Under the pieces are notes generated by a model. The model saw only the letters and a list, made by a program, of their open reading frames with translations. It searched no databases and was not told the DNA's origin. A stretch of 64,000 nucleotides of DNA from Methylocaldum marinum (GTDB lineage: Bacteria > Pseudomonadota > Gammaproteobacteria > Methylococcales > Methylococcaceae), in assembly GCF_003584645.1 (NCBI RefSeq), contig NZ_AP017928.1, positions 2,208,395 through 2,272,394 on the forward strand, written 5' to 3'. Positions 6,373 to 32,439 of the stretch are shown piece by piece (position 1 is the first letter of the stretch; every line of letters starts with the position of its first letter). The translations under genes and the position numbers were made by a program.

Positions 6373-7926
6373 ATGAAAATACTCGCCGTCCATCCCAGCC
6401 CTTTGATGTACACCAAGGTCTTTCTCCGTCTCGAGCCCTTAGGTTTGGAGATGGTGGCGGAATCGGTACGCCGCCTGGGGCACTCGGTCCGTCTGATCGA
6501 TCTTCAGGTGGAGACCCATCGGGACTTCTATCGCATGCTGGAAACCTGGCGGCCGGACGTCGTGGCCTTCGCCCTCAATTATCTGGCCAACGTCCCGGAA
6601 GTGATCGATCTCGCCAAGGACGCCAAGGACCGGCTGCCCGACAGCTTCGTTTGCATCGGCGGGCACAGCGCCTCGTTCACGGCCAAGGATCTGCTCCAGC
6701 ACGGCGAGGGCAAGATCGATTGCGTACTGCGCGGCGAGGGCGAGGCCGGATTTCCGAAGCTCCTGGAGGCGATCGAGCACGACCGCGATTCCGTGCATAA
6801 GGTGCCGGGAGCGGTCACCGCCGACGGCGAAGGTCCGCCGCCGGGCTTCGTCGCCGACCTCGACGAGGTCAGCCCGGCGCGGGATCTGGTCCGGCATCGC
6901 CGAAAATATTTCCTCGGCACGCTCGATCCCTGCGCCTCGATTGAATTCACCCGCGGCTGCCCCTGGGACTGCTCCTTTTGCAGCGCCTGGACCTTCTACG
7001 GCCGCAGCTACCGCGTCATGAGCCCCGAGAAAATCGTCGAGGACCTGAGCCGCGTCCGGGAACCCGGCGTCTTCATCGTCGACGACGTGGCTTTCATCCA
7101 GGACAAGCACGGCTTCGAAATCGGCGAAGCCGTCGCCCGCCGCGGAATCAAGAAGGAGTATTACCTCGAGACCCGGGGCGACGTGCTGCTCCGCAACAAG
7201 GACGTGTTCCGGTTCTGGAAAACATTGGGCATGGAGTACATGTTTCTCGGCGTCGAGGCCATCGACGAGGCCGGTCTCGCTCTTTATCGAAAAAGGGTGA
7301 GCCTGTCCAAGAACTTTGAGGCGCTGGAATTCGCCCGCTCCCTGGGGATCACCGTCGCCATCAACATCATCGCCGACCCCGACTGGGACCGGGACCGCTT
7401 CGAAACCATCCGCCAGTGGTGTCTGGAGATCCCCGAGATCGTCAACATCAGCGTCAACACGCCCTACCCCGGCACCGAAACCTGGCACACCGAATCCCGA
7501 AAGCTGACCACCCGCGACTACCGTTTGTTCGACATTCAGCACGCCGTTCTGCCCACCCGGCTGCCGCTGCCCGAGTTCTACGCGGAACTGGTGAAAACCC
7601 AGCAGGTGCTCAATCTGAAACACATGGGCTGGGAATCCCTCAAAGGCGCGGCCGGCATCGTCTTCCGCCGTCTGCTGCGGGGCCAGACCAACTTCCTGAA
7701 GAGCCTGTGGAAATTCAACAGCGTCTTCAACCCGGAACTGCAACTGGCGGACCACCGGCGTCCGGTCAAATACGAGATGTCCCTGCCGCCCGAGCGCAGC
7801 GAGCAGAAATTCAAGCCGCAAACCCTTTACGTGCACGAGATCCGCGAACGCAAGCCGCGCGCGCTGGACGAAGCGACCGAGCGCTTCGTCGACGAGAGCC
7901 GGACGGGCGCCTTAGCCGAGTCCTGA
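6373..7926 (+). CDS. hpnR: Hopanoid C-3 methylase, B12-binding radical SAM protein
   Basis: A 517-residue class B radical SAM methylase that adds a methyl group at C-3 of the hopanoid A ring, giving 3-methylhopanoids, lipids characteristic of aerobic methanotrophs. The N-terminal 140 residues form a cobalamin-binding Rossmann domain (opening MKILAVHPSPLMYTK; GGHSA near residue 97), followed by the radical SAM core with the CxxxCxxC cluster Cys196, Cys200, Cys203 (CPWDCSFC). The C-terminal 130 residues are the extension seen in HpnR. The enzyme needs cobalamin, whose synthesis genes lie at 22799-32275. A perfect hairpin sits five bases after the stop. HpnJ and other B12 radical SAM enzymes are the alternatives, but the N-terminal sequence fits HpnR best. 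Confidence 0.85.
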   Translation: MKILAVHPSPLMYTKVFLRLEPLGLEMVAESVRRLGHSVRLIDLQVETHRDFYRMLETWRPDVVAFALNYLANVPEVIDLAKDAKDRLPDSFVCIGGHSASFTAKDLLQHGEGKIDCVLRGEGEAGFPKLLEAIEHDRDSVHKVPGAVTADGEGPPPGFVADLDEVSPARDLVRHRRKYFLGTLDPCASIEFTRGCPWDCSFCSAWTFYGRSYRVMSPEKIVEDLSRVREPGVFIVDDVAFIQDKHGFEIGEAVARRGIKKEYYLETRGDVLLRNKDVFRFWKTLGMEYMFLGVEAIDEAGLALYRKRVSLSKNFEALEFARSLGITVAINIIADPDWDRDRFETIRQWCLEIPEIVNISVNTPYPGTETWHTESRKLTTRDYRLFDIQHAVLPTRLPLPEFYAELVKTQQVLNLKHMGWESLKGAAGIVFRRLLRGQTNFLKSLWKFNSVFNPELQLADHRRPVKYEMSLPPERSEQKFKPQTLYVHEIRERKPRALDEATERFVDESRTGALAES

Positions 7927-21119: not shown

Positions 21120-22187
21120 TTATGTGGTTTTTAACAATAGATCGGTACCGCTGGGTGGTTCCTTCACCGGATTAAGCCACACCGCACCGATAGGTTCCCA
21201 GTTGCGGGTGGCGCCCGTCCAACGCTCCGGATGGCGTTCTTTGGCCGCCCGATAAACCTGGTCTCGGGCGGCTAGGATCGTCCTGTCGTTGCCGGCGTGG
21301 CGCTCCGCTGGAGTCACGTAACGGAGGCTGCTATGGCGGTGCTCATCGTTGTACCAGCGTACAAACGCCAAGACCCAGTCACGGGCCGCCTCCAGGCTTT
21401 CGAAGCCGGCGTGCGGATAGCCCGGCCGGTACTTGCAGGTGCGAAACAGCGCCTCGGAGTAGGGGTTGTCGTCGCTCACTCGTGGGCGGCTGTAGGAAGG
21501 TTCAATCCCCAAAGCCTCCAGCGTCGCCCGCAAGGTGCTGCCCTTTTGTGGGCTGCCGTTATCAGCATGCAGTACGAGCGGCTTGCCGACACAGCCTTCC
21601 GCCAGCACCGCGCGGCGGACGACGGTGGCGCCGTACTCGGCCGATTCCCGTTCGTACACTTCGAAGCCCACGACCTTGCGGCTATAGAGGTCGAGAATCA
21701 GGTACAGGTAGAAAAATAGACCTCGCACCGGTCCTGGCAGCCAGGTAATGTCCCAGCTCCACACCTCACAAGGCCCTCGGGCACACCGGCTCGGCGGTGG
21801 CGTCGGATGTCGCGGTGTGCGCGCACGCCCGCGGTGGTGCTGCTCATCGGCTTCCCGCAGAATCCGATAGAAGCTCGATTCCGACCCGAGATACACGCCC
21901 TGGTCGGCCAGCCGAGGCACGATTTGGCTCGGCGGGAGACTGGCAAACTCCGGCGCATGACAGACCTCCAGCACGCGCGCCCGCTCCTCGGCGCTGAGCT
22001 TGTTCGAAGGCTCAGGCCGCTCCGCCAAAGGTCGGCCGTCAGCTTTCACTTCGCCATCTTGGCGCCAGCGCTGATCAGTCCGCTCGCTGAGGTTTAACGC
22101 TGCACAGGCCTTGGCACGGCGGGCGCCCGATTGGACCGCTTCCTGGATCAGCTCCACGGCTTGGCGGCGACTTGGGGTGCTGATCAT
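21120..22187 (-). CDS. IS3-family transposase OrfB
   Basis: A 355-residue integrase-type transposase with the DDE triad: the first Asp in WSWDITWLPG, the second in LHADNGSPQKG and the Glu in NPYSEALFRTCKY. An N-terminal HTH-like segment precedes the rve core. Its ATG at 22187 overlaps the OrfA stop (ATGA), as usual for IS3 elements where OrfAB forms by frameshift or reinitiation; a G-run (TTTGGGGGGA) just upstream is a plausible slip site. OrfB looks intact. Confidence 0.9.
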   Translation of the reverse strand: MISTPSRRQAVELIQEAVQSGARRAKACAALNLSERTDQRWRQDGEVKADGRPLAERPEPSNKLSAEERARVLEVCHAPEFASLPPSQIVPRLADQGVYLGSESSFYRILREADEQHHRGRARTPRHPTPPPSRCARGPCEVWSWDITWLPGPVRGLFFYLYLILDLYSRKVVGFEVYERESAEYGATVVRRAVLAEGCVGKPLVLHADNGSPQKGSTLRATLEALGIEPSYSRPRVSDDNPYSEALFRTCKYRPGYPHAGFESLEAARDWVLAFVRWYNDEHRHSSLRYVTPAERHAGNDRTILAARDQVYRAAKERHPERWTGATRNWEPIGAVWLNPVKEPPSGTDLLLKTT

Positions 22188-22678
22188 TCGTCCTCGCGGT
22201 CCCCCCAAATCGCCTCGGCTTTTTTTCGCAGCACCAGCAAGGCCGCCGCCTCCGCCAAGGCTTTCTCCTTGCGCTGGAGCTCACGCTCCAGTTCCCGCAG
22301 CCGCTTCTGGTCTGCCTGTTGCGATTCCTTCAAACGCCGCTGCTGTGACCGATCCCAATCATTGGCCTACTCACAGGCTAAGCGCCAGGCCCGAATCTGT
22401 TCCGGATACAAGCCCCGCCGGCGGCAATACTCTCCCAGTTCCGCTTCACTCAGCGAAGCCGTCTCCACCACCGCCGCGAACTTGTCCCGCGACGTCCACC
22501 CTTCCGGACTCTGATCGCCATCCGGCAACAAACGTCCTTGGCGACGGGCTTCCTTCCGCCAGAGATACAGCGTCGCTTCCGAAATCCCTTCCTCTCGGGC
22601 CAACTCCGATAGCGCTCGGTTATGTGGCGGTAACATCTTCTTCAAGACCGCTTCTTTTCGTTCCGACGAATATTTCAT
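22184..22678 (-). pseudogene. IS3-family OrfA, interrupted by an internal TAG
   Basis: The frame opens MKYSSERKEAVLKKM with an HTH (SELAREEGISEATLYLWRKEAR), runs to RRGLYPEQIRAWRLACE and meets TAG at 22364-22366. The same frame then continues ANDWDRSQQ..., a leucine-zipper-like coiled coil (RLRELERELQRKEKALAEAAALL), and ends EAIWGDREDE. Full length would be 164 residues. The stop separates the DNA-binding part from the coiled coil. Confidence 0.8.
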
Positions 22679-22798: not shown

Positions 22799-24424
22799 TC
22801 ATTCATCGGGTTCGGCCACTGTTTCGGGGATTTCTCCGAGGGGAACATGGCGCTGTCCGAAGCGTTCGCGGGCTTGCCGGTAAGACCTCAGGGCCGTTTC
22901 ATCGAAACGCCCGTTGCGCTTGACCAGCGACAGGGAAACCAGCGCGGCGCCGTGCCGGTCGAGAAAATGAATGCCGTGTTGCTGATCGCCCCGGCTCAGA
23001 AACCAGGCGTGGGCGATTCGGCTGCCGTCGACATGCAAATGAAAGTGTCGATCAACCAGATTGAGCCAATGACCGCGCCAGACCGAGCTTCCGCCGTCCA
23101 GCAACAGCTCGGCGGTCGCGCCGCCCTCGCTGCGCGCTACGGCGCGCAAGCGACCCCAGTCACGGCTTGCTTCGATCACCTCGGCGGTGGCCTCCGGCGC
23201 GAAACGCAAGGCGCTGTATGCGCCGGCCTCATCGTCCGCGTGCTGTGCACCGATAGCGGAGAAAATTTCTCCGAGAGGCGCATCGAAAACGGTAGCGGCG
23301 TCGCGCAGCGAGAGCTCCGGCTGCTCGCGCAGCCGTTTTCGCACGCAGGCGTGCCAGTCCGCCAAGCCCATGCCGAGCGGGCGCCCCGCCCGTTCGCCGT
23401 CTTTCGCCTCGCCGGTCAGCCCCTCGTATTTGTGGGCATAGCCGCGCGGGGTGATCATCAGGCCCTCGCGGACGAAGGTGGCGCTATTCCCGATCAGGAC
23501 CGTGCATAACATGCCGATCTCGCAGTCGGCCATACGGGCCAGAGAAGTCATCTGGATCGACTGGCGGCGGTAGCCGGACTTGACAACGGCCACCGGCGTT
23601 TCCGGGCTGCGATGCCTTAGCAGAATGGCTTGCGCCTCGACGATCTGGCGCGTGCGACGACCGCCTTTCGGATTGTATAGAGTCACCACGAAATCTCCCC
23701 GGGCCGCCGCTTCCAGGCGTCTGGCAATGACCGGCCAGGGTGTGAGCAGGTCCGACAGCGAGATGGCACAGAAATCATGGGTGAGCGGCGCACCGACCAG
23801 GGCCGCGCAGGCGTTCAGCGCCGTGGCGCCGGGAATGACCTCCACCGCGACGCCGCCACTCGGCATCCAGCCGGCTTGCAGCAAGACTTCGAAGGTCGGT
23901 CCGGCCATGCCGTAGATCCCGATGTCGCCCGAGGCGATCAGCGCCACGGTCTTGCCCAGCGAAGCCTGTTCATAAGCTTCGACGCAGCGGTCAATCTCTT
24001 CGGTCATGCCTTTGCGGATCACCTCCTTGCCGTCGAGCAGGTCCTGCACCAAATTGACCGGGTGCGCGACAAGCCCCGCCGTTCAGGGCGGGGAAGGATA
24101 GCGCGGACGGCGGAGCCGTCCTATAATGGCGTTGCTGCCGACAACCAAGGCAGCCTACGGCAGGGCATGCCGGAAGTAACGCCTGTGGAGATACGAGCAG
24201 CGGTTGCGCACTCGGCCCAGGAACCCACCGAAGCGACTCAGGGGCGGCTCAATGCCGCCCCTGAGCGCCGTAGGAATCTCCGGCCTTCAGGCCGAGGAGG
24301 ATGTCAAATAAGTGGAATAGCCGATCACCACGTCGGCCTCGGCGATCGCCTCGCGGGCACGGTAGCTCATGTGCTCGGGCGCGCCGGGTCCGAATCCCAC
24401 CAGGAGAATCCTGCCCTTAGCCAT
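22799..24424 (-). pseudogene. cobJ: Precorrin-3B C17-methyltransferase CobJ with HemS/HutX-like C-terminal domain, split by an insertion
   Basis: CobJ contracts the corrin ring. The first 39 residues (24424-24308; MAKGRILLVG, GPGAPEH, IGYSTY) are followed by a 249-bp insertion that introduces a stop. The frame resumes at 24058 with VNLVQDLLDGKEVI and runs 419 residues to 22799. Removing 24059-24307 gives a 458-residue protein with a seamless GYSTY-VNLVQD join. The methyltransferase core has ASGDIGIYGMA and EVIPGATALNA; residues after about 280 resemble a HemS/HutX haem-binding half (LSLRDAATVF, HFHLHVDG, GIHFLDRHG). A start at TTG 24052 would lack the SAM-binding loop and is unlikely to be active. 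The ATG overlaps the cobE stop by 8 bases. Confidence 0.85.
24059..24307 (+). mobile_element. Non-autonomous IS200/IS605-type element with omega-RNA-like 3' end, inserted in cobJ
   Basis: A 249-bp insertion lying directly 3' of TTGAC (24054-24058), a target/TAM pentamer of the type used by IS605-group elements. The left end has the hairpin CCCCGCC-gttca-GGCGGGG (24074-24093) and a TATAAT box at 24122. The right part has a perfect 12-bp hairpin CTCAGGGGCGGC/GCCGCCCCTGAG (24237-24265) and the end GGAATCTCCGGCC-TTCA-GGCCGAGGAGG then ATGTCAA, which I recognise as the 3' end common downstream of tnpB, where the omega RNA scaffold lies. No tnpA or tnpB is present, so it depends on proteins supplied in trans. 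The sequence right of 24307 would be the guide segment. Confidence 0.8.
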
Positions 24425-24614
24425 CGTTCAGCCTCGCAATGGAGACCGTGGCGTTCTTGCCGTCCGGGCCCCGGTATTTGTGTTTCTCCACGACCAGTTC
24501 GCCGCGCGAAGCCAGCAATGCCGCCGCCTCGGCCACCGCCGGCGTGCCCATGTACTTGCGCACCGTTTCGAGAGAAGTGCCCCGGTCACAGCCCAGCCCC
24601 AGGACGACCCGCAT
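24417..24614 (-). CDS. cobE: CobE / CbiG C-terminal domain, apparently internally deleted
   Basis: A 65-residue protein that begins like CobE (MRVVLGLGCDRGTSLET) and then passes at once to the family's C-terminal part (VRKYMGTPAVAEAAALL ... NATVSIARL). CobE/CbiG-C domains are usually about 120-130 residues, so some 60 residues of the middle seem to be missing in frame, consistent with a deletion between two ET-coding sites. The start overlaps the cbiG stop (TGATG at 24614) and the stop overlaps the cobJ start. Activity is doubtful. CobE/CbiG-C assists the ring-opening of cobalt-precorrin-5. Confidence 0.7.
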   Translation of the reverse strand: MRVVLGLGCDRGTSLETVRKYMGTPAVAEAAALLASRGELVVEKHKYRGPDGKNATVSIARLNDG

Positions 24615-31940: not shown

Positions 31941-32065
31941 CGATATCTCCCTTTCGTTGGACTTGGCGTCGAGAACCCGAAGGGAGCGAACCCGTGCACG
32001 AATACACACTCGCCGAAATGCAAGTGTGAGGTGCCGGCGCCCGCCCATCGCGGGTTAAAGCTACT

Positions 32066-32275
32066 CCTTCCGGGCCGGTCTCCGGGCTTGCGAGGGATGC
32101 CGAAAGACATCTGCGCATCGCCTTCCCGCGTGACTCCAGTCAGGCAGTGACATCATGATGCGCATTGGCTCGCTTACCGTTGCGTGGGCAGCGCCGGCAT
32201 TGCCGAATGAAGACCCATTCGGCGCACCGGCTTCCCGTTTAACTCGAGTCCGTCGAATGCGGTTCGAGCACCCGG
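32066..32275 (-). promoter_or_regulatory. Cobalamin (B12) riboswitch
   Basis: On the minus strand the leader of cbtB contains the conserved blocks of the B12 aptamer in order: AAACGGGAAGCCGGTG (P3-P4 entry), a P5-P6 hairpin region, GCTGCCCACGCAACGGTAAG (the B12 box, about 32175-32195), CACTGCC, and AGCCCGGAGACCGGCC (about 32072-32090). A GC-rich hairpin (CCCGCGATGGGCGGG) follows before the gene. High B12 would be expected to shut off cobalt uptake and corrin synthesis. Exact ends are approximate. Confidence 0.9.
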
Positions 32276-32439
32276 AAGTCGATCAGGGGCGTACTCTAAA
32301 AGATTTGTCCGGGCGCGTCAAAACCTGCTTGCGGCCCATGCACCCTCCCGATAGCCTCGGTGATCGGCCTTCGATGTAATTGAGATCCCGCAACCACATA
32401 AGACATTGATGCCTTTTTGAAAGCGATTTTGAAACGACC

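Follow-up and report, generated by a model that had tools for sequence, protein, structure and literature searches.

The minus-strand cobJ gene of Methylocaldum marinum (24424-22799) is interrupted by exactly 249 bp (24059-24307), which raises the question of what this insert is, how it reached a B12 gene and what may keep it there. Unless another sequence is named, positions are those of the window, the whole 64,000-nucleotide stretch of DNA that was analysed. The reading frame of cobJ extends without a stop from 24424 to 24308, is closed by three stops within 24059-24307 even though the size of the insert, 249, is divisible by three, and resumes at 24058:

24308-24424, minus strand: first 39 codons of cobJ, seen as an open frame
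22799-24058, minus strand: 3' part of cobJ with a C-terminal ChuX/HutX-like domain, from the frame and a domain match

When the two flanks were joined by script, they formed a single 458-aa frame that aligned to the CobJ proteins of three relatives with no gap at the junction (308/456, 279/439 and 326/460 identical columns), and the split that the original prediction had read from the sequence thus holds to the base. A TTG at 24052 is a possible restart for translation; because its product would be devoid of the first 39 residues, the GFGPG stretch among them, we take cobJ to be off while the insert is present. A search of the genome for a second cobJ found none; besides the two halves, it gave related methylases with lower scores. 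We note that the C-terminal domain of CobJ is of the ChuX/HutX-like type associated with haem utilisation (PF06228; window 22799-24052), and that a transposase pair with HTH_Tnp_1 and integrase-core (rve) domains, which we read as IS3-like, lies directly behind cobJ at 21120-22678.

The genome is a single contig of 6,088,916 bp and contains a second copy of the insert, 100% identical over 249/249 positions, which splits a histidine-kinase gene between VLT and NLMDNA, so that HisKA (67.7 bits) and HATPase_c (85.1 bits) come to lie on opposite sides of it. With the insert taken out, either frame closes up with no extra base, and there is no target duplication. Since the two copies have different flanks within one contig, and the same element is present in other records (see below), the chance that the interruption is an assembly error or a chance repeat is practically negligible.

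The same genome carries five full-length relatives of the insert (F1-F5; 1,775-1,776 bp, 98.9-99.8% mutual identity), the tnpA- and tnpB-bearing copies with matching ends for which the original prediction had proposed a search. They match element positions 3-64 at 95-98% and positions 160-249 at 89/90 or 90/90. A domain scan, performed on F1, identified tnpA (Y1, 156 bits) and a divergent tnpB (HTH, OrfB_IS605, TNB), and the resident TnpA aligned over its full length to the IS608 TnpA 2a6m, including the HUH and tyrosine regions (E 3e-24, 88.5 bits). The insert itself carries no protein genes. It is therefore a TnpB-less element of the IS605 type, as had been supposed, with hairpins that are subterminal and take the place of terminal inverted repeats. 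Its plan consists of a left end, a -10-like box, a 5' hairpin, the scaffold of a TnpB omega RNA and a right end, without tnpB:

24055-24058, plus strand: target TGAC in the left flank (TTGAC at cobJ), abutting 7/7 own copies with a left end
24059-24307, plus strand: miniature IS200/IS605 (PATE-type) element of 249 bp; two identical copies, relatives match element positions 3-249
24059-24121, plus strand: left end with hairpins at 24074-24093 and 24105-24121; element positions 3-64 are 95-98% identical to full-length left ends, and fold
24070-24073, plus strand: left guide CAAG at the 5' foot of the first left-end hairpin, from the sequence and the IS608 pairing rule as excerpted from PMC5934647
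24122-24127, plus strand: -10-like box TATAAT, directly 3' of the left end; TAnnnT in 20/22 miniature elements
24134-24154, plus strand: covarying 5' hairpin P0; 5/6 pairs changed on both sides
24155-24217, plus strand: omega-RNA scaffold core, the P1 hairpin (24158-24172) and then GGAAGTNACGCCTGTGGAG; model R1 (see below) matches tnpB 3' ends
24218-24307, plus strand: right end and omega RNA 3' part, 90/90 identical to F5 and 89/90 to F1-F4; GAAT at 24274-24277, terminal hairpin at 24277-24298, TCAA at 24304-24307
24308-24323, plus strand: predicted 16-nt guide from cobJ, antisense to its mRNA, by analogy with the ISDra2 reRNA as outlined in the available part of PMC8612924

A sixth relative (L020) consists of a tnpB 3' part and a right end only; at about 2250-2553 of this locus, the tnpB fragment and right end abut a NuoF-like frame (NADH_4Fe-4S, 81.4 bits) whose start seems to be missing. 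A distinct TnpB element is located at 757 kb. The third RuvC acid of the own TnpBs is D in F3 and F4 (NADVV) and E in F1, F2 and F5 (NAEVV), the NAE residue of F1 facing the D of DRDEN in an alignment to a solved TnpB-like nuclease, and by the RuvC-III motif these TnpBs are closest to the Derived clade. The five near-identical tnpB copies (L015-L019; NAEVVG in three, NADVVG in two) thus make up a natural set for a comparison of activity. Another, lower-scoring Y1 transposase gene is found at most 300 bp from F1 and from F3 (C1:147509-147865 and C1:4936840-4937196).

An insert with the ends of a resident IS could have arisen by deletion of the core of that IS, and we looked at the middle of the element (positions 65-159, 95 bp) with this in mind. 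It has no match in F1-F5 beyond 12-bp words, and among 38 genomes of the family it occurs in the own genome only. A whole-element query matched 8/61 genomes, own included, and the matches outside the own genome cover one end each. Of 889 plasmid records with a match, however, two hold most of the element, with positions 3-249 at 96.0% identity in Paenalcaligenes faecalis and 91.1% in Allochromatium tepidum. Local core deletion was thus rejected, because the middle is absent from the five full-length copies and yet conserved on these plasmids.

A 31-base pattern from the middle was found at 11 loci (12 sites) in the genome collection and on one viral contig, three viral-contig pattern scans returning the same single contig. 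The hosts are Tepidimonas charontis, T. aquatica, T. fonticaldi, Yanghanlia caeni (three sites), two Alcaligenaceae MAGs, one of whose copies is cut by a contig end, Calidithermus roseus, a Thiomonas, a Thermosynechococcus MAG and an Aquaspirillum. As the pattern fixes 29 letters, conservation inside it was selected for, and the box, P0 and the rest of the element lie outside it. All 13 sites show left-end sequence, whole or damaged, in place of a tnpB frame ahead of the box, so that every exact-pattern site is a miniature element and a TnpB gene with the exact scaffold was not found among them. Model searches added five miniature elements: two in the Thermosynechococcus MAG, of which one has a decayed right end, and one in each of T. 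charontis, Yanghanlia and a further genome. Counting the own pair and the plasmid pair, the total comes to 22 sites, a few being damaged or cut. By host name they span three phyla, with Beta- and Gammaproteobacteria, Deinococcota and Thermosynechococcus, the cyanobacterial case being a MAG. Among 50,697 phage records there were 13 partial matches, and 65 of 5,426 E. coli genomes had partial matches; at no place did a match extend over 80% of the element. The original prediction was right in kind and too local, the element belonging to a family that crosses phyla and has a conserved middle of its own. As a separate observation, 12 Pseudomonas phage records (within MK511001-MK511015) carry, at an annotated tRNA-Gly, 42 bp that are 97.6% identical to the left end.

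The ends follow a rule close to that of IS608. The insertion site had been read as TTGAC, which precedes only 4/7 own copies with a left end; TGAC precedes 7/7, and the target is hence the tetranucleotide TGAC. For IS608, the portion of PMC5934647 at hand describes how AAAG, at the base of the left hairpin on its 5' side, recognises the target TTAC, its first and second A pairing with T-3 and T-4, and how GAAT recognises the right-end TCAA. The right-end code of the miniature element is identical, its left guide likewise lies beside the hairpin, and the difference lies in target and guide, TGAC with CAAG as against TTAC with AAAG. The change from A to C in the guide would answer the change from T to G in the target, as expected from the IS608 rule, and guide and cleavage site can thus be paired at both ends (GAAT/TCAA and CAAG/TGAC), judging from the letters. 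The C that IS608 prefers directly after its target is present in only 3/7 own copies. Within the family, TGAC precedes CAAG by 15-17 nt (start to start) in 18/22 miniature elements; the exceptions are three with a changed or lost left end (L082, L087, L089) and one with CAAG and no TGAC (L088). In the host genomes of two of these four, T. aquatica and Thiomonas, searches for a TnpB domain and for a Y1 transposase both came back empty. GAAT stands before the right hairpin in 19/21 miniature elements listed, and TCAA at the right border in 21/21, partly by construction, as most borders were located by TCAA. TGAC would also double as the TAM of the empty site.

We then asked what the middle encodes. 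In one plus-strand frame it reads LRQGMPEVTPVEIRAAVAHSAQEPTEA, which resembles the tail of a Deferribacter TnpB (LPQGLREVTPVEYAREY...KQEP). An alignment of 13 miniature elements gave a consensus fold of 46 pairs, 10 of which are changed on both sides, and from these 13 sequences, with no tnpB-linked sequence among them, we built the covariance model R1. It matched the right ends of the five own full-length elements with 102.2-108.9 bits, a score that comes partly from the shared right end, and also a Deferribacter tnpB (51.8 bits) and a different own tnpB (32.9 bits). All of these tnpB matches stop at the right-border TCAA, a position that fits the flank as guide. In the 12 host records, 24/38 R1 matches of 75-130 bits adjoin a TnpB domain on the same strand, versus 0/16 of those with at least 130 bits, a count that covers matches of at least 75 bits and in which two miniature elements (G466:C94, and G460:C110, which is cut by a contig end) fall into the lower class. 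The sequence and structure common to miniature elements and tnpB 3' ends are those expected of an omega RNA, so that the omega-RNA-like character proposed for the right part of the insert is supported by a model that never saw a tnpB. In wider scans with strict filters and six candidates scored per genome, R1 matched 16/398 genomes of the phylum and 49/399 of the order of Yanghanlia at E <= 0.001, and only 1/398 and 3/399 with at least 150 bits. Gathering-threshold Rfam searches of the window returned the cobalamin riboswitch alone; the element matched no family, and no group I intron of the kind expected in an IStron was seen.

Covariation was examined in 18 distinct miniature elements, a set without the cut copy L081, duplicate copies from Yanghanlia and the second of the own copies. 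Over 37 pairs, 96.5% of the cells are paired. Nine pairs are changed on both sides, versus a mean of 5.1 in shuffles that ignore the relatedness of the sequences (reached by 2/500), and the covariation score was 0.206, versus 0.123 for the shuffles (reached by 0/500) and at most 0.066 for slid versions, over which the tested structure is favoured by having been named from the fold of 13 of the same sequences. Further pair types were not in excess over the shuffles, 112/500 of which reached the count. The changes on both sides lie mostly in P0 (5/6 pairs). P0 is mostly or wholly missing in three of the four tnpB-linked R1 alignments (F1, F5, L021), and in the fourth, the Deferribacter tnpB match, 3/6 of its pairs are non-standard.

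The middle could also be conserved as DNA, by folding or by binding TnpA or a host factor during transposition. IS605 elements do act as single strands, and this element folds well in both forms (z = -5.1 as ssDNA, z = -4.6 as RNA). The same unit of sequence and structure is nevertheless found at tnpB 3' ends, in the place of the omega RNA, which makes a purely DNA-level role improbable.

Ahead of the scaffold, the TAnnnT box is present in 20/22 miniature elements and in 0/18 other R1 matches with coordinates, a set in which linkage to tnpB is proven for part only and in two members of which TTTAAT is found. A consensus scan of 24000-24450 for sigma-70 sites returned no promoter-like match, and a promoter at 24122-24127 is only suggested. 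Together, the box and the hairpin ahead of the scaffold would supply what a stand-alone omega-RNA gene needs. As reported in the consulted part of PMC10278001, TnpB can process its own mRNA and so produce the omega-RNA 5' end, with clear sites in 30/59 orthologs, and Derived TnpBs (RuvC-III NADXN) have two 5' stem-loops and one 3' stem-loop in common.

Starting from this anatomy, from the resident TnpA and TnpB genes with matching ends, from the target rule and from covariation of the RNA type, we consider it likely that the insert is a non-autonomous IS200/IS605 element of the PATE type that acts as a stand-alone, mobile gene for an omega RNA and depends in trans on TnpA for its movement and on TnpB for its retention. 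The Y1 TnpA of the five resident elements would recognise the common hairpin ends and insert the miniature element as a single strand 3' of TGAC. The plus strand, the structure of which is described above, would then give rise to a transcript of about 170-190 nt, for which the box at 24122-24127 may serve as promoter; this RNA would start with the extra 5' hairpin and end with the right end and about 16 nt of flank, antisense to cobJ. In a last step, a TnpB would bind this RNA in trans and, once the element has been excised, cut the TGAC-cobJ site that it left empty; the sister copy would then serve as the repair template that brings the insert back. Given that no TnpB with the exact scaffold was found, a resident TnpB would have to accept a related one. 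Other points that weigh against this reading are the E at the third RuvC acid of three of the five own TnpBs, the absence of P0 from the R1 matches of F1 and F5, the 4/12 host records in which no TnpB domain was found, the negative promoter scan, the C after the target in only 3/7 own copies and the count of further pair types, which shuffles often reach. The outcome would be a small element that is moved and kept by the proteins of others, with cobJ off while the insert stays.

A simpler reading is that of a passive PATE, in which the ends alone matter and the omega-RNA stretch is an unused remnant of a tnpB 3' end that hitchhikes with them. PATEs without a described RNA role are known, both as core-deleted relics and as multiplied kinds, in the sections of PMC3119063 and PMC7290912 available to us, and no TnpB domain was found in 4/12 host records (three draft genomes and one plasmid). 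When the cobJ insert was compared with ten other miniature elements, the middle was better conserved than the right end in 7/10 cases (96/98 as against 73/88 with the second T. charontis copy); the right end was the better conserved in the remaining 3/10, namely Yanghanlia copy 4, Allochromatium and Calidithermus. The better conservation of the middle in most comparisons, the compensatory changes in its hairpin and the absence of the box from the 18 other R1 matches speak against a remnant without function, and we regard the passive reading as unlikely, if the least so of the alternatives that deny the RNA a role in trans.

A comparison that used, for each host, a single full-length element or right end (two for the own genome) suggests that the histories of middle and right end differ in part. 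The cobJ insert has the right end of the resident F5 (88/88), both T. charontis miniature elements have the right end of a resident tnpB element (86/86), and that of T. fonticaldi agrees at 85/86 positions with a right end located at the end of a contig, with no TnpB domain detected beside it. The Yanghanlia copies match resident right ends at 82/88 and 77/90, the first being closer to the own F1 (85/88), and the Aquaspirillum copy at 61/88. Because the right end follows the resident one there while the middle is common between genera, the sequences point to an exchange of ends in two or three of the five hosts. This would fit a further idea, that of a guide-RNA-only transposon lineage of about 240-250 bp with its own promoter-like box and 5' hairpin, which crosses phyla, takes over the ends of resident IS605 elements by recombination or conversion, and borrows both TnpA and TnpB. 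We put it forward tentatively, at somewhat less than even chances, since the exchange is limited to two or three of the five hosts and the right end is in some comparisons better conserved than the middle. If true, such elements would be parasites of TnpA and TnpB, and their omega RNA would evolve apart from the nuclease gene.

Returning to the reading of an omega-RNA gene served in trans, the closest known systems are the PATEs. Those of Haloquadratum include kinds that have multiplied (homogeneous PATEs; PMC3119063, in part), and a PATE-like sequence of Halanaerobium hydrogeniformans joins a left end, the last 58 nt of tnpB and a right end in 271 nt (PMC7290912, in part). They resemble the insert in their near-terminal palindromes of the IS605 type and in the lack of target duplication and transposase, and the Halanaerobium sequence also in its joining of left end, tnpB tail and right end. 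As far as the descriptions at hand extend, PATEs are reported within one species and without an RNA role, whereas the present plan, with its common middle, spans phyla. The insert further differs from them in a middle unlike that of the resident IS and in the -10-like box and covarying hairpin. HEARO RNA and the trans-encoded omega RNAs of IscB are also guide-RNA units without an adjacent nuclease gene; they belong to IscB and carry the guide at the other end of the RNA. Like the insert, the reRNA of ISDra2 runs through the tnpB 3' end and the right end and takes its guide from the flank; it is about 150 nt long, the last 16 nt or so being flank, according to the part of PMC8612924 consulted. 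The insert can also be set beside the Derived-clade omega RNAs, with their two 5' stem-loops and one 3' stem-loop, in the accessible portion of PMC10278001. It differs from TnpB omega RNAs in that no tnpB frame surrounds it, P0 lies upstream of P1 and no TnpB with the same scaffold was found. A conserved TnpB-less omega-RNA family is not described in the literature searched, mostly outside of which lie subscription papers and preprints. Thus, PATE-type elements are not new as a kind, and the cross-phylum TnpB-less omega-RNA family would be a new variant, as judged by sequence comparison.

The role generally ascribed to TnpB is the retention of its own transposon. That a conserved family has kept the guide RNA and not the nuclease suggests that such retention can also work in trans, which would be worth keeping for an element that carries nothing else, and a 249-bp element makes a natural test object for this function of TnpB. 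In this family, omega RNA would moreover evolve separately from tnpB, a step that would be needed on any path to the separately encoded guide RNAs of CRISPR. A split omega RNA has been proposed as the source of the tracrRNA-crRNA pair in the part of PMC10097598 available.

The position of the insert in a B12 gene raises the alternative that it is a regulatory device, its guide RNA silencing or gating B12 synthesis. The guide would be antisense to cobJ, the other cluster genes scanned (parts of cbiG, cobI/cbiL, cbiET, cbiD, cbiC, cbiX and cobM/cbiF) have family matches and no visible break, with several scoring under the NCBI cut-offs, and the cluster has its own riboswitch. The window also encodes HpnR, to which the original prediction had linked the state of the pathway:

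32056-32290, minus strand: cobalamin riboswitch ahead of the cob cluster (RF00174, 97.6 bits)
6373-7926, plus strand: hpnR, hopanoid C-3 methylase, a B12 radical SAM protein (TIGR04367, 929 bits, cut-off 650)

The second own copy nevertheless lies in an unrelated histidine-kinase gene, and the flanks of the other insertions are unrelated save for one site common to two Tepidimonas species, which makes a dedicated device highly improbable next to a chance insertion. At the common site, the second T. charontis copy (L149) and the T. fonticaldi copy (L086) have identical flanks and are probably one old insertion kept in two species.

By analogy with its relatives, the insert that breaks this B12 gene would be of a kind able to leave without a scar. 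A pattern search of the genome for the empty cobJ site, allowing at most 3 mismatches, returned the filled site only, and no other site for the predicted cobJ guide came up in it. A cobJ above the family cut-off is present in 3/20 relatives (G008, G012, G043) and was not found in the three other genomes of the genus; an empty site could therefore not be demonstrated in a close relative.

Finally, the tnpB 3' ends and miniature elements from 5/9 sources matched the Rfam family HgcC with 24.6-34.1 bits, below its threshold of 50 (L015 2249-2328, L079 2251-2379, L078 3123-3199, L084 5153-5232 and L089 4874-5035). HgcC RNAs are archaeal, and may themselves be omega RNAs.
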